Source: Gemmatimonadota bacterium (lineage in GTDB: Bacteria; Gemmatimonadota; Gemmatimonadetes; Longimicrobiales; Longimicrobiaceae). From it: 12,174 bases of DNA. The first letter of the stretch is position 1; each line of letters starts with the position of its first letter. Below, one piece after another: positions 3,527 to 8,320 of the stretch. The notes under the pieces were generated by a model. It made no database searches. It had not been told where the DNA came from and saw nothing but the letters and a program-made list of their open reading frames with translations. The stretch is taken from assembly GCA_019240375.1 (NCBI GenBank), contig JAFAYN010000286.1, forward strand, positions 1 through 12,174, read 5' to 3'. The position numbers were made by a program, and so were the translations under genes.

Positions 3527-5617
3527 ATGCGGGATCTGGACGAGCTGTTCGCGTCGGCCCTCGAAGCGCTGGACGTACGCGTCGCCGTGCTGGACGACGC
3601 GGGGACCGTCCTCGCCGTCAACCCGGCCTGGTACGCCTTCGCCTGCTCCGGCGCGGGGGGCGGCTCCGTCCGCGAGGTGGGCGAGGACTACCTGGCCGTG
3701 GCGGAGGCGGGGAGGGGGCCGGAAGGGGAGGCCGGACCGGCGATCGCGGTGGGGATCCGGGAGGTGCTGCACGGTCGCCGCAGGCGTTTCTCCCACGAGT
3801 ACCGGTGCGAGGAGGGATGGTTCGTGCTCCGGGCGACGCGGCTGGCGGGGACGCTCCCCTTGCGCGCGGTGGTGGCGCACCAGAACATCACGGAGTGGAA
3901 GCGGGCGCAGGCGCGGCTCCAGGAAAGCAACCAGCGCTTCCGCCAGCTCGCGGGGAACCTCCGCGAGAACCTGTGGATCTTCGACCCCGACTTCACCCGG
4001 GCGGTCTACGTCAGCCCCGCGTACGAGGAGATCTCGGGGCGCACGCTGGAAAGCCTGTACCGGGAGCCGGTCTCCTTCCTGGAAATCATCCACCCCGAAG
4101 ACCGTCCCGGGGTGGAGGCGGTGATGCGCACGGTGCGCGAGGGGGAGCAGGGGCTGGAGTTCCGTATCGTGCGGCCGGACGGGGAGGTGCGCTGGGGCCG
4201 GATGCGCGCCTTCCCGATCCGCAACTCCGATGGGGAGGTGTACCGGGTGGCGGGGATCACGGAGGACATCACGCGCCGCAAGCGCGTCGAGCAGGAGCAG
4301 CGTTTCCTGGTGGAGGCGGGGCGGGTGCTCTCTTCGTCGCTCGACTATGAGGAAACGCTCCGGCAGGTGGCGCGGCTGGCGGTGCCGCAGATCGCGGACT
4401 GGGCGGGGGTGTACGTGGTGCGCGAGGGGGGCGGGGACGCGGAGGTGCGCCGGGTGGAGCTGGCCCACGCCGACCCGGAGCAGTGGGAGCTGGCGGAGCG
4501 CTTCCGCACCATCGCCCTCCCGCCGGAGCACCCGGTGCGCCGCGTGGTGCGCACCGGGGAATCGCTCATGCTCCAGGACGTGCACGGCTCGTCGGCGAGG
4601 GACCCGGCGTACGTGGAGCTGGTCCGCCTGCTGGGCCCGCGCTCTCTGATCACCGTCCCGCTCCTGGCGCGGGGGCGGGTACTGGGGGCGATCCACCTGA
4701 TCTCCGCCGCGTCGGGGCGGCGCTACGGCCCGGACGACCTGGCGCTCGCCGAGGAGCTGGCCCGCCACGCCGCGCTGGCCGTGGACAACGCGGGGCTGTA
4801 CCGCCGGGCCACCCTGGCGCTGCAGGCCCGCGACGACGTGCTCGCCATCGTCTCGCACGACCTGCGCAACCCGCTGCAGGCCATCTCCCTGTACGCCGAC
4901 CTGCTGCGCGAGGCGGACTCGCCGGAGCAGCAGACCCGCTACCTGGACGCGATCCAGCGCTGCGCCCAGCGCATGGGGCACCTGATCCAGGACCTGGTGG
5001 ACGTGGCGAGCATCGAGATGGGGCGGCTGGCGATGGACCAGGCGCCGCTGGCGGTGGAGCCGCTGCTGAAGGAGGCATACGAGCTGTTCCACTCGCCGGC
5101 CGGGGAGCGGTCGCTGCACCTGGAGTTCGAGGTGGCGGACGACCTCCCCCCGGTACGCGCCGACCACCACCGCGTCCTCCAGGCGCTCTCCAACCTGCTG
5201 GGGAACGCCGTCAAGTTCACCCCGCCGGGGGGGAGGGTGCTGGTGCGGGTGGACCGGGAGGGGGAGGGGATCCGCTTCGCGGTGACGGACACCGGGCCGG
5301 GGATCCCCGAGGGGCAGCGCGACCGGGTGTTCGAGCGCTTCTGGCAGGGGCGGCGCACGTACCGCGGGAGCGCCGGGCTGGGGCTGGCGATCACCCGGGG
5401 GATCGTGGAGTCGCACGGCGGCCGGTCGGGGGTGGAGAGCCGCGAAGGGGAGGGGAGCACCTTCTGGTTCACCCTCCCGGCCGAGGGGACGGCGCCGCCC
5501 GTGCCGGCGGTGGAGGCGGTTCCCGCACGCGGCGGTACGCGGGTTGCGCGAGGGAGCGGGCCCGAGGCGGACACGAACGTTTCCGCGCATGGACCCGAAC
5601 CCGGACGTGAACGATGA
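3527..5617 (+). CDS. Soluble hybrid-sensor histidine kinase, PAS-PAS-GAF-HisKA-HATPase
   Basis: The product is 696 residues with no transmembrane segment or signal peptide, so it should sense a cytoplasmic or diffusible cue. In order it shows a degenerate PAS domain (about 1-122, ending QNITEWKR), a PAS with its C-cap (about 135-252, IHPEDRPGV and TEDITRRKR), a GAF domain (about 256-425, PRSLITVPLLARGRVLGAI), a dimerisation domain with the phospho-acceptor in SHDLRNPLQ (His444), and a catalytic domain with the N box (Asn560), DTGPGIP (Asp588) and GLGLAI (Gly617). A proline- and glycine-rich tail of about 45 residues follows. No receiver domain is fused and no response regulator is next to it. 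The stop codon overlaps the start of ytxJ (ATGA at 5614-5617), which implies translational coupling. The ligand cannot be told from sequence. Confidence 0.93.
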   Translation: MRDLDELFASALEALDVRVAVLDDAGTVLAVNPAWYAFACSGAGGGSVREVGEDYLAVAEAGRGPEGEAGPAIAVGIREVLHGRRRRFSHEYRCEEGWFVLRATRLAGTLPLRAVVAHQNITEWKRAQARLQESNQRFRQLAGNLRENLWIFDPDFTRAVYVSPAYEEISGRTLESLYREPVSFLEIIHPEDRPGVEAVMRTVREGEQGLEFRIVRPDGEVRWGRMRAFPIRNSDGEVYRVAGITEDITRRKRVEQEQRFLVEAGRVLSSSLDYEETLRQVARLAVPQIADWAGVYVVREGGGDAEVRRVELAHADPEQWELAERFRTIALPPEHPVRRVVRTGESLMLQDVHGSSARDPAYVELVRLLGPRSLITVPLLARGRVLGAIHLISAASGRRYGPDDLALAEELARHAALAVDNAGLYRRATLALQARDDVLAIVSHDLRNPLQAISLYADLLREADSPEQQTRYLDAIQRCAQRMGHLIQDLVDVASIEMGRLAMDQAPLAVEPLLKEAYELFHSPAGERSLHLEFEVADDLPPVRADHHRVLQALSNLLGNAVKFTPPGGRVLVRVDREGEGIRFAVTDTGPGIPEGQRDRVFERFWQGRRTYRGSAGLGLAITRGIVESHGGRSGVESREGEGSTFWFTLPAEGTAPPVPAVEAVPARGGTRVARGSGPEADTNVSAHGPEPGRER

Positions 5618-5946
5618 CTCCGCTTACCACGCGCGACGAGGTGGACGAGGTGCTGCGGCAGGACGGCGCGATCCTGTACAAGCACAGCACGCGCTGCCCG
5701 ATCAGCGCCATGGCGAACGAGCACATGCAGCGCTTCGAGCAGGAGCACCCGGACGCCCCGGTGTACCTGATCGACGTGAACGAGAGCACCGAGGCTTCGC
5801 GGTACGTGGCGGAGCGCACCGGGGTGGAGCACCAGTCGCCGCAGGTGATCCTGCTGCGCGACGGCGGGGTGGCCTGGCACGCCGACCGCTTCGACATCCA
5901 GCCCGAGGCGCTGGAGGAGCACCTGGCGGGGGGGGCGGGGCGCTGA
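5614..5946 (+). CDS. ytxJ: YtxJ-type monothiol bacilliredoxin
   Basis: The product is 110 residues with a thioredoxin-like fold. The signature KHSTRCPIS (residues 23-31) carries the only cysteine of the protein (Cys28), as in the YtxJ family (bacillithiol system redox-active protein). YLIDVNES, SPQVILLRDG and VAWHADRFDI are further family-like blocks. Known members are linked to bacillithiol metabolism and are thought to remove bacillithiol from mixed disulfides on proteins; that role is taken from the family, not seen here. The ATG overlaps the stop of the upstream histidine kinase, so the two are very probably co-transcribed and translationally coupled. If the assignment is right, the host should make bacillithiol or a related thiol; no biosynthesis gene (bshA, bshB, bshC) is in the window. 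Confidence 0.9.
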   Translation: MTPLTTRDEVDEVLRQDGAILYKHSTRCPISAMANEHMQRFEQEHPDAPVYLIDVNESTEASRYVAERTGVEHQSPQVILLRDGGVAWHADRFDIQPEALEEHLAGGAGR

Positions 5947-6001
5947 AGGAACGGGGCTCGCGCGAGGGCCGGCTCAGCACGGCCCCCATCCGGCGGCCCG
6001 A

Positions 6002-6037
6002 GAGCCGCCACTTTCCCCCAATTCTGGGGGAAGGCTC
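6002..6037. repeat. Nested inverted repeat downstream of ytxJ
   Basis: TTCCCCCA (6013-6020) and TGGGGGAA (6025-6032) form an 8-bp stem with an ATTC loop. Outside it GAGCC (6002-6006) can pair with GGCTC (6033-6037), leaving a 6-base bulge on the left side. No T-run follows, so it is not a standard terminator. It could be a dispersed palindromic element or an mRNA 3'-end stabiliser. Confidence 0.6.
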
Positions 6038-6056
6038 AAGAGCTGGGTACAGCAAC

Positions 6057-6086
6057 AGGGCGAGCACCCACGCGGATGCTCGCCCT
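6057..6086 (+). terminator. Terminator-like hairpin for the kinase-ytxJ operon
   Basis: AGGGCGAGCA (6057-6066) and TGCTCGCCCT (6077-6086) pair over 10 bp. The following bases are T-rich but interrupted (TCGTCGTTGTTG). It is 110 bases after the ytxJ stop and the best candidate for ending that transcript, although the broken T-tract makes it imperfect. Confidence 0.5.
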
Positions 6087-6124
6087 TCGTCGTTGTTGCC
6101 GTTCCCATAGTTCCCACAGCATGT

Positions 6125-6246
6125 GCGGAGGGAGACCACGGCAGTATCGTGGGCTCACTCCGCGGGCGGGGAGACTGCCGGTAGTTTGGCAGGCTCACCG
6201 CCCCCGTGCAGGAGACCGGCAGCAGTACCGCCGGGCTCCGGAGCGG
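6125..6246 (+). repeat. Three directly abutting covarying stem-loops (candidate structured RNA)
   Basis: Unit 1 is 6125-6163, unit 2 is 6164-6203 and unit 3 is 6204-6246, with no bases between them. Each has GGAGA on the left and GCTC(A/C) on the right. Within these, GAG pairs with CTC, flanked by an A/G opposition on the loop side and, in units 1 and 2, a G/A opposition on the outer side. The inner 5-bp stems differ but stay paired: CCACG/CGTGG, CTGCC/GGCAG, CCGGC/GCCGG. The outer 6-bp stems also differ but stay paired in units 1 and 2: GCGGAG/CTCCGC and GGGCGG/CCGCCC; in unit 3 the outer stem is imperfect. Loops are 7, 8 and 9 bases and share an AGT core. The mismatches are purine-purine if the + strand is transcribed, so I favour a + strand RNA. 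No known RNA family is recognised. Confidence 0.75.
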
Positions 6247-6265
6247 CCCCAACTCCCAGGAATGA

Positions 6266-8320
6266 TCAATCGCCCGAGACCGGGGCCTCCCCCGCCACCC
6301 CTTCGTGCACACCCAGGTTCCGCTGCAGAAGAGCAGCAGGATCCGGATCCCGCCCCATGAACTCCCGGAACAGCTCCCGCGGGTCCGCCCCGTCCCCCCG
6401 GGAAAGCACCGCGTTCACGAAGTCCCGCCCGACGGAACGGTTGAACAGCCCCTCGCGCTGGAACCGGGTGAACGCGTCCGCGTCCAGCACCTCGGCCCAC
6501 ATGTAGCTGTAGTACCCCGCCGCGTACCCTCCCGCGAAGATGTGCGTGAACGCCGTCAGGAAGTGGTTCCGCGCGAACTCCGGCCGCGCCACGAACCGCG
6601 ACATCACCTCCTGCGCGTACGGGATCACCTCGCCGTCGCGCCGGGGATCGTAGTGGACGTGCAGGTACAGGTCGAGCGTCCCGTAGCTGAGCTGCCGCAT
6701 CTGGAAGTTGGCCGCCATGAAGTTGCGCGCCGCCAGCATCTTCCGATACAGCTCGTCGGGGATCCGCTCTCCCGTCTCCCAGTGCCGGGCGAACAGGTCC
6801 AGCGCCTCCCGCTCCCAGGTCCAGTTCTCCATGATCTGCGACGGCAGCTCCACCCAGTCGCGCGACACGTTGGTCCCCCCGCGCGAGGTGACCTCCACCC
6901 GCGACAGGACGTGGTGCAGCAGGTGGCCGAACTCGTGGAAGATGGTCTCCACCTCGCGGTGGGTGAGGAGCGCGGGGCGGTCGCCCTCCGGCGGCGACAG
7001 GTTCCCGGCTAGCGACCCCAGATGCGGCTCCCACCCGCCGTCCGCCGGCCCGCCGGTGATCAGCCCGCTCATCCACGCCCCGGCGCGCTTGCTCTCGCGT
7101 GGGAACCAGTCGGCGTAGAAGCCGCCCAGGTAGCTCCCGGACTCGTCGCTCACGTCGTAGAACCGGACCTCCGGGTGCCAGGTCTCGGGGATCGGGTGCT
7201 CGGCGACCGTCACCCCGAACAGGCGGCGGGCGAGCTCGAACAGCCCGCTCAGCACGCTGTCCATCGGGAAGTACGGGCGCAGCTCCTCCTCGTCCAGGTC
7301 GTACCGGGCGCGGCGCATCCGCTCGGCGGCGAAGGCGGTGTCCCACGGCTCCAGCTCGTCGATCCCCAGCTCCTCGCGGGCGAACTCCGCCAGCTCCTCC
7401 ATCTCCCGCTTCCAGTACGGGCGGGTGCGCTCGGTCAGGTCCTCCTCGAAGGAGAGCGCCGTCGCCCCGTCGTGGGCCATGCTCTCGTCCAGCTTGTAGT
7501 CCGCGAAGTCGCGGTACCCCAGGAGCGTGGCCAGCTCGCGGCGCAGCTCCAGGATGCGGGCGATGACGGGGCGGTTGTCGTGCTCCCCCTCCGAGGCGCG
7601 GTTCATGTACGCCTCGTACAGCCGGCGGCGCAGCTCCCGGTCCTCGGCGTACTGGATGAAGGGCTGGTACGAGGGGACGTGCAGGGTGAAGCGCCACCCT
7701 TCCACCTCCCTGGCCTCGGCCGCGGCGCGCGCCTGCGCGACCGCCGTGGGGGGGAGCCCGCGCAGGTCGTCCGGGTCGGTCACCACCAGGTCGAAGGCGT
7801 TGGTGGAGTCCAGCGCGTTGTTGGAGAACTGGGTCTGCAGGGTGGACAGCTCCACCCGCAGCGCCTCCACGCGCGCCTTGTCCTCGGGCGGGAGGTCCGC
7901 GCCGGCGCGGACGAACTCGCGTACCGTCTTGTCCAGGTGGCGCCGCTTCACCCCGGTCAGGGCCCGCGCCTCCGCGGTGGCGGCGTACGCCTTGACGGCG
8001 CTCCACAGCCCCGGGTTCAGCGGGAGGCGCGCGTCCCAGGTGGAGATCTCGGGGAGCACGGTCTCGTACGCTTCGCGCAGCTCCGGGGTGTTCATCACCC
8101 CCAGCAGGTGCGACACCGGGTGGATCACCCGGCCCAGGCGCTCGTCCAGCGCGTCCAGGCGCGCGAGGGTGTTCTCGTAGGTGCGCTCGCCGGGCTCGTC
8201 GATCAGCGCCTGCAGCTCCCGCTCGGCGCGGGCCAGCGCTTCCCGGATGGCCGGGACGACGTGCTCGGCCCGGATCCGGTCGAACGGGATGCGCGGGGCT
8301 TCGGAAAGGAGTGGGTTCAT
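6266..8320 (-). CDS. prlC: M3 family zinc oligopeptidase, oligopeptidase A-like
   Basis: The product is 684 residues, close to the size of E. coli oligopeptidase A (OpdA/PrlC). Members are mostly cytoplasmic thimet-type metallopeptidases that cut short peptides, including cleaved signal peptides. The zinc site HEFGH is at 462-466, with Glu463 as catalytic base, and Glu491 in WVELPSQ is the third ligand at the usual 25-residue spacing. Other family blocks are PFDRIRAEHVVPAI near the N-terminus, SGSYLGGFYADWFPRESK upstream of the zinc site, and GGYAAGYYSYMWAEV near the C-terminus. The ATG at 8320 is chosen because it gives the family's typical N-terminus; the ribosome binding site there is weak (AGGCGA). 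No signal peptide is seen. It is divergent from the amidohydrolase gene. Dcp-type dipeptidase is the alternative, but OpdA fits better. Confidence 0.93.
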   Translation of the reverse strand: MNPLLSEAPRIPFDRIRAEHVVPAIREALARAERELQALIDEPGERTYENTLARLDALDERLGRVIHPVSHLLGVMNTPELREAYETVLPEISTWDARLPLNPGLWSAVKAYAATAEARALTGVKRRHLDKTVREFVRAGADLPPEDKARVEALRVELSTLQTQFSNNALDSTNAFDLVVTDPDDLRGLPPTAVAQARAAAEAREVEGWRFTLHVPSYQPFIQYAEDRELRRRLYEAYMNRASEGEHDNRPVIARILELRRELATLLGYRDFADYKLDESMAHDGATALSFEEDLTERTRPYWKREMEELAEFAREELGIDELEPWDTAFAAERMRRARYDLDEEELRPYFPMDSVLSGLFELARRLFGVTVAEHPIPETWHPEVRFYDVSDESGSYLGGFYADWFPRESKRAGAWMSGLITGGPADGGWEPHLGSLAGNLSPPEGDRPALLTHREVETIFHEFGHLLHHVLSRVEVTSRGGTNVSRDWVELPSQIMENWTWEREALDLFARHWETGERIPDELYRKMLAARNFMAANFQMRQLSYGTLDLYLHVHYDPRRDGEVIPYAQEVMSRFVARPEFARNHFLTAFTHIFAGGYAAGYYSYMWAEVLDADAFTRFQREGLFNRSVGRDFVNAVLSRGDGADPRELFREFMGRDPDPAALLQRNLGVHEGVAGEAPVSGD

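Follow-up and report, generated by a model that had tools for sequence, protein, structure and literature searches.

The window analysed here, a stretch of 12,174 nt, carries a run of three abutting hairpins between two convergent genes, together with a conserved lead, a variable tail and two associated upstream repeats (Table 1). The three hairpins were found where the first-pass annotation had placed them, and the YtxJ-type gene is co-directional with this copy and 155 nt away from it. Its description of a GAG/CTC stem flanked by purine mismatches holds for the loop-side A.G of all three hairpins and for the outer G.A of H1 and H2, but in H3 the outer position is a G-C pair, followed by an internal loop; likewise, a common loop is indeed present, but the AGT core assigned to it is better given as G(C/T)NGT. 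The plus-strand fold of the array reaches -81.1 kcal/mol, whereas shuffled sequences average -67.1 (z -3.4; none of 200 shuffles as low), and, as the minus strand is likewise stable (z -4.2), folding energy alone cannot pick the strand. A consensus scan of positions 5940-6330 for sigma-70-like promoters and intrinsic terminators returned neither on either strand, and at the window copy it gave no support to a terminator-like reading, made by eye, of the upstream palindrome.

Table 1. Features of the hairpin array and its surroundings (window coordinates)
Feature	Coordinates	Strand	Remarks
YtxJ-type bacilliredoxin gene, upstream	5614..5946	+	NCBIfam TIGR04019, above cut-off
Associated upstream repeat, hairpin CTTTCCCCC/GGGGGAAGG	6006..6036	+	Recurs 5' of many copies
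Associated palindrome with GTTGTTG tail	6057..6097	+	Recurs just 5' of many copies; no match to a simple terminator consensus
Conserved 5' lead, GCCGTTCCC...GTTCCCA...ATGT	6098..6124	+	Unpaired in the structure used; aligned in 31, then 77 copies
Hairpin H1	6125..6163	+	Outer stem GCGGAG/CTCCGC, G.A, GAG/CTC, A.G, apical CCACG/CGTGG, loop GCAGTAT
Hairpin H2	6164..6203	+	Outer stem GGGCGG/CCGCCC, G.A, GAG/CTC, A.G, apical CTGCC/GGCAG, loop GGTAGTTT
Hairpin H3	6204..6246	+	CCGT/GCGG, GCA/GGA internal loop, G-C, GAG/CTC, A.G, apical CCGGC/GCCGG, loop AGCAGTACC
Conserved core end	6247..6249	+	GGAGCGGCCC spans 6240-6249; 3' boundary sharp
Variable A/C-rich, T-poor tail	6250..6265	+	Ends at the stop codon of the convergent gene; composition from 72 own-genome copies
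Convergent M3 oligopeptidase A-like gene	6266..8320	-	Best model PRK10911, below its equivalog cut-off; stop 16 nt from the element

With its three hairpins, 6125-6246 forms part of one copy of an element of about 150 nt that is dispersed through the incomplete own genome (G000; 3.46 Mb assembled in 632 contigs, completeness 62%) in about 90 copies. The repeat unit starts about 27 nt 5' of H1 (near position 6098) and stops at 6249. BLAST with the array gave 40 own-genome matches, the best 40 of 147 candidates being scored, and a pattern spanning H2 and H3 had 77 exact matches in the same genome and none in the reversed control. A covariance model trained on 77 aligned copies (71 of G000 and 6 of G001, a genome of the same genus) yielded 101 own-genome matches when the best 150 of 4651 candidates were scored. 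These comprise (i) 83 matches at 129 bits or more, (ii) 7 copies scoring 36-97 bits that are variant or cut, contig ends truncating 2, and (iii) 11 matches that do not exceed 31 bits, among them 8 opposite-strand readings of known copies. One further contig-end copy (C331) turned up by pattern search alone. Among the options listed in the first-pass annotation was a dispersed palindromic DNA element; the view, also given there, that the pattern does not reflect recent sequence duplication has to be divided: it stands for the three units within one array, but the array as a whole is a dispersed repeat that has multiplied within lineages.

Exact matches to an H3 pattern were distributed over six genomes (G000, 82; G001, 14; G004, 2; G006, 30; G007, 24; G008, 1), with none in the reversed controls and none in seven other members of the family, one of which, G015, has diverged matches. 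By BLAST, 7 of 41 genomes were positive and, with the covariance model and filters stricter than those of BLAST, 7 of 298, own genome included in each case; the array is therefore no sole occurrence. All matching genomes belong to the own family except G083, a member of the same class, in which six loci match over one hairpin only. At the gathering threshold, the window and 12 further loci had no match among 4227 Rfam families, in keeping with the earlier statement that no known family could be recognised, and a permissive setting over 5950-6320 gave one match, with an E value of 2.7 and a score far under its gathering score. No match was obtained by blastn in plasmid and phage collections, and three pattern matches in viral contigs were discarded, the best reaching 15 bits with the covariance model and two being without a score. 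A pattern scan of GTDB contigs recovered at least 56 stretches, 38 of which were scored with the covariance model, the 18 left unscored all coming from the isolate Gemmatimonadetes RYN_364. Among the 37 scored stretches outside that isolate, one from Gemmatimonadetes CSSed162cmA_48 (L150) was good, at 58 bits, and one from another Gemmatimonadota record (L175) weak, at 18 bits (E 0.015); a stretch of RYN_364 itself (L131) holds two model matches of 56-59 bits. Pattern matches in other phyla (Methylobacterium, Streptomyces and others) were taken as chance, since no good model score was obtained among the stretches scored. In open-licence articles on Gemmatimonadetes, Longimicrobium or interspersed repeats, we did not find the element described.

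Common to the copies are a 5' lead containing GTTCCC or GTACCC, the three hairpins, and a 3' end, GGAGCGG(C/T)CC, that hardly varies. Every hairpin follows one plan: the outer stem, then GAG/CTC, the inner A.G mismatch and the apical stem, in most cases topped by a G(C/T)NGT loop; both G004 copies have other loops in its place. Mismatches were counted in a model-made alignment of 98 distinct sequences (84 from G000 and 14 from G001), which made no demand on H3 and included variant loci. The inner A.G is kept in 96 (H1), 93 (H2) and 95 (H3) of the 98, and the G.A and A.G of the H3 internal loop in 97 each, the outer G.A being less constant, with a G-C pair in its place in 54 (H1) and 21 (H2). 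Expressions requiring GAGAC, GGCTC and GAGCGG(C/T)CC in H3 had served to choose both the first-alignment set (77 copies) and the arm-shuffle set (71), so that the fixity of these H3 bases in those sets is partly by construction. Copies of G006, G007 and G008 (e.g. L122, L373 and L071) have a longer H2, with an extra inner arm around the apical stem that in G006 and G007 reads ACGGAGG...CGGAGGAGGAGG. A similar insert was observed in one G000 copy (L066), but in H1. Variants with one or two hairpins also occur in G000, and two of the loci L338-L341 (L339 and L340) resemble H2/H3 recombinants by eye. There was no 5' truncation as in retroposition, as no model match of at least 36 bits lying away from a contig end begins inside the model.

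Beyond the core, the G000 tail is about 28 nt long, A/C-rich and variable, and it follows the core whichever way the next gene points; it contains more G in G001, and is C- and G-rich in G006 and G007. Over the first 12 nt of the tail, 72 G000 copies gave C at 0.41-0.56, G at 0.12-0.16 and T at 1-9%, the share of G being 0.18-0.27 in G001 and 0.28-0.35 in G006 and G007. The C-rich, G-poor, rut-like composition of a Rho-dependent terminator is accordingly seen in G000, less so in G001, and not in G006 or G007. An intrinsic terminator, that is, a GC-rich hairpin with a U-run, was not found at the 72 core ends, which lead into the T-poor tail.

Pairing was assessed with and without a fitted alignment. 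When the apical stems were simply anchored on GAGAC/GGCTC, 93, 98 and 100% of cells paired in H1, H2 and H3, respectively (71 of 71 copies), against arm-shuffle means of 49, 73 and 71% and 15-46% in slid controls; an earlier parse failed to separate the three units in 4 of the 77 copies. In the model-fitted alignment, which leans towards structure, 95.9% of cells are paired, against 84.2% after shuffles that ignore the relatedness of the copies (none of 500 as high) and at most 47% when slid. Both sides change in 20 of the 40 pairs; the covariation score reaches 0.285, whereas sliding leaves it at 0.039 or below. RNAalifold rendered H1 poorly on a MAFFT alignment because the apical arms were misaligned, and the structure was then set by hand and checked by arm shuffles. 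Compensatory change on a conserved fold, first noticed among the three hairpins of the window, is strongly supported: paired stems covary across about 100 copies, and the covariation extends well beyond that single array.

At the 40 pairs, G.U was recorded in 108 cells (11 pairs), A.C in 9 (7 pairs) and A.G or G.A in 128. The excess of G.U over A.C favours folding of the plus strand, though most of it comes from four pairs and a mutational bias between strands may add to it. The stem type of one hairpin is independent of those of the others: mutual information among H1, H2 and H3 does not exceed that of shuffles (P = 0.81, 0.54 and 0.18). In five cells, the inner A.G has turned into A-T (H1 of L104; H2 of L011, L344 and L221; H3 of L342), and those hairpins read as nearly perfect palindromes. 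Arm-to-arm templating in DNA is thus a real alternative source of covariation, but the mismatches that are retained indicate that it is not the whole story.

The gene settings of 80 own-genome copies were determined with a home-made gene caller. None of the 80 overlaps a called gene; the settings are convergent (n = 30), tandem same/same (n = 15), tandem opp/opp (n = 14), divergent (n = 3) or at contig ends (n = 18), and where the downstream gene is an opposing one (n = 53), its stop codon falls no more than 40 nt from the 3' end of the element in 42 cases. In G001, G006 and G007, overlaps with a called gene concern 1 of 14, 1 of 27 and 2 of 24 copies, convergent settings number 2, 4 and 5 (the G006 and G007 copies being mostly tandem), and opposing stop codons lie 4-93, 14-157 and 23-143 nt away, respectively. 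The convergent excess and the tight stop spacing are not family-wide.

The 5' flanks in the own genome are repetitive over 150-300 nt (62 of 72 copies at 25-50 nt), while the 3' flanks are single-copy sequence (1 of 68-72 copies repetitive at 0-250 nt), so that other repeat families accumulate on the 5' side only. No gene carried between repeats was found in the flanks of 72 copies, up to 1.2 kb on each side. Two repeat families recur 5' of many copies, namely the CCCCC-AATTCT-GGGGG hairpin (window 6006-6036) and a GGGCGAGCA...TGCTCGCCC palindrome (6057-6097). A short repeat of the GACAGGTTACAGGGGACAG type was noticed by gene ends, in both orientations (L084, at about 1365-1385, 5415-5440 and 7825-7850).

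Hairpins of related design were encountered in other dispersed repeats. A second repeat of G001 (L232-L242; e.g. L239, at about 1475-1610) is made up, in this order, of GCGTGAGGGATGCGAGCCCG, a GGGGCGAGAC...GGCTCGCC hairpin and a long stem, whose loop is GGTCGTTTC or GGTCGTATC and whose arms vary between copies yet pair; the hairpins of this repeat have the same GAGAC/GGCTC frame, with a GNNGTTT-type loop, and the CCCCC-AATTCT-GGGGG hairpin also lies 5' of several of its copies. A third dispersed palindrome, from G083 and hence outside the family (L195, L201, L204, L208, L212 and L216), has a single GAGAC...GCNGTTT...GGCTC hairpin, which is enclosed by GCGTTGGAACGC-like and GCGTTCCGC-like arms as part of a long palindrome. 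As the G001 and G083 repeats share the hairpin, the module is wider than the three-hairpin array.

Five own-genome sites were looked up in G001, and none was kept. Two own-genome sites are empty there with both flanks kept, 98 versus 672 nt (where the extra DNA exceeds the element length) and 59 versus 500 nt separating the homologous blocks, and two more sites of the same stretch are rearranged, with no element next to the matching genes. At the window site, no copy lies in the 450 nt next to the peptidase gene in G006, G007 or G008, and no element end in the roughly 50 nt between that gene and the contig end in G001. A tree of 88 copies (24 of the about 90 from G000, 14 from G001, 26 from G006 and 24 from G007; bootstrap not settled) shows 5 changes of genome label against 47.8 when shuffled, the copies mostly clustering by genome, and two G006 copies fall among those of G007.

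Shared neighbours were compared over 160 loci, some of them overlapping, from seven genomes, 8 loci yielding no element to the search expression. Homologous genes no more than 400 nt from a copy in each of two genomes made up 12 pairs, and side and orientation agree in 11 of the 12 (chance agreement per pair about 0.31, a hand estimate from the own-genome setting counts); the shared gene is on the 3' side in 9 of these 11. Four of the 11 pairs rest on weak or partial homology (L352/L380, L080/L375, L109/L368 and L006/L383). Firmer shared neighbours are (i) rny, mreB and an ornithine cyclodeaminase-like gene for G000/G007, (ii) alaS for G000/G006, (iii) a PLP decarboxylase-like gene and a response regulator of c-di-GMP phosphodiesterase type for G000/G001, and (iv) the end of a regulator gene, which we take to be of the Fis type, for G001/G006. 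Outside this tally, the element lies upstream of the same gene, presumably ATP-grasp-like, in G007 and G008. Eight gene neighbours, rny, mreB and alaS among them, are common to species or genera in the same arrangement, and the distances to shared anchors are 54/55 nt for mreB, 64/63 for the decarboxylase gene and 46/56 for alaS. At the decarboxylase locus, a 2.4-kb match is 79% identical, yet all three stems differ and still pair. Positional partners in the own-genome set exist for 2 of the 14 G001 copies. Site sharing is real for some sites and a minority overall.

The element was compared with known systems. Integron attC sites are sequence-variable, structure-conserved hairpins recognised as one DNA strand, with many per genome; unlike them, the copies studied here lie in both orientations among ordinary genes, without a cassette array, and no attC box was recognised by eye. 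PMC8266576 and PMC3733652 describe REP, BIME and REPIN sequences as imperfect palindromes between genes, present in many copies, with mismatches conserved in the stem and features specific to one strand. Our element resembles them in these respects, but it has three hairpins on one plan, a length of about 150 nt, freely replaced stems and some positions common to genera. REP/RAYT elements, as portrayed in PMC8266576, carry a palindrome of 20-50 nt after a conserved tetranucleotide, mostly GTAG. No GTAG stands at the 5' foot of the window hairpins, and TnpA_REP (Y1_Tnp, PF01797) was not detected in G000 (62% complete, its absence there being unproven), G001 (96%), G004 or G010; Y1_Tnp is present in G006, G007, G008 and G013, without these hairpins in the fetched flanks. 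With two defining features of GTAG-REP/RAYT thus not found, the element is not placed in that family. A table in PMC2267715 lists Bcr1 with sizes of 167 and 147 and copies of 31(21) and 12. To judge from that source, bcr1 and SLS are, like our element, dispersed repeats of about 150 nt with a common predicted fold, but they belong to another host group, and the three-unit architecture with a common mismatch motif sets our element apart, bcr1 being distinguished by description and not by sequence. With regard to MITE features, the 5' lead and the 3' end are not inverted repeats on inspection, and the two empty G001 sites are too diverged for target-site duplications to be read. We therefore describe a new structured interspersed family that is REP/bcr1/SLS-like in kind, differs in anatomy and is not a member of GTAG-REP/RAYT.

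Tentatively, and as a possibility that we prefer to the others, we propose a dispersed, non-coding, structure-conserved intergenic element whose plus-strand fold is read by a common factor, and which persists by serving the sequence on its 3' side, a transcript boundary being the leading mechanism. The plus strand would fold, most likely as RNA, and the common factor would recognise the fold through its pattern of mismatches and loops. Recombination between copies would renew the elements, swapping their stems, and copies would persist where they serve the 3'-side sequence, be it where an opposing gene terminates or the stretch leading into a co-directional one. There, a plus-strand transcript boundary, by termination or roadblock, would keep transcription out of the right-hand unit. 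This boundary or termination role is the least supported part of the proposal and represents our best guess. Several findings count against the proposal as a whole: in the tandem opp/opp settings, no upstream plus-strand gene feeds the element; 5940-6330 gave no promoter or terminator match; most sites are unshared; tail and context are not family-wide; the outer G.A is often G-C; and the G004 loops differ. A repeated protein-binding hairpin is possible.

Somewhat unlikely, in our judgement, is a selfish non-autonomous mobile element (REP/MITE-like) without host role, whose hairpins would be taken as single-stranded DNA by a recombinase encoded elsewhere. Copy numbers of 82 versus 14 exact matches within one genus, the two empty G001 sites, the clustering of copies by genome and the related hairpin units in other dispersed repeats of G001 and G083 all fit such an origin, and TnpA_REP is stated in PMC8266576 to recognise mismatched hairpins strand-specifically. 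However, Y1_Tnp is missing from G000 and G001 as assembled, and none of nine Y1_Tnp loci from G006, G007, G008 and G013 has such a hairpin within about 1.5 kb. Few copies are decayed, the same arrangement is shared at core genes between genera, and no longer, gene-carrying version is seen, as the similarity between 5' flanks runs out within about 450 nt and the sequence on the 3' side is not shared between copies.

We consider neutral upkeep at the DNA level distinctly unlikely; here, template switching between arms would perfect the stems and so mimic compensatory change, and shared positions would reflect recurrent insertion at favoured sites. It would account for the five A-T cells and is in line with stems being swapped between copies and with the two apparent H2/H3 recombinants. 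Such correction should, however, erase mismatches, whereas each inner position retains A.G in 93-96 of 98 sequences; by itself it would not produce the G.U excess over A.C, and the matching distances at mreB and the decarboxylase gene favour retention over recurrence. That the array is a stand-alone small RNA, or one derived from the 3' end of the kinase-ytxJ operon, as also put forward in the first-pass annotation, is very improbable in spite of the nearby co-directional gene, given that the element is dispersed beside many unrelated genes, is absent from the 450 nt next to the peptidase gene in G006, G007 and G008, and has no sigma-70-like promoter within the span scanned.

In its most far-reaching form, the proposal of a plus-strand fold read by a common factor would make the element a new structured RNA class, an orientation-specific, genome-wide boundary element with possibly more than 100 loci per full genome. 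A dedicated protein would then read the mismatch and loop code, and copies would be kept by core genes (rny, mreB and alaS) across genera while their stems are rewritten by recombination between copies. We hold this to be unlikely.

Bacterial interspersed repeats are usually read as selfish palindromes. The present family has multiplied in the manner of mobile elements, its stems covary as those of an RNA do, its mismatch code is nearly fixed and some of its gene neighbours are common to genera, and this set of features suggests a structured RNA, or a single-stranded DNA, with a job at gene boundaries. It offers a good test case for whether interspersed repeats become working parts of transcription units, and for the spread of compensatory change by recombination between copies.
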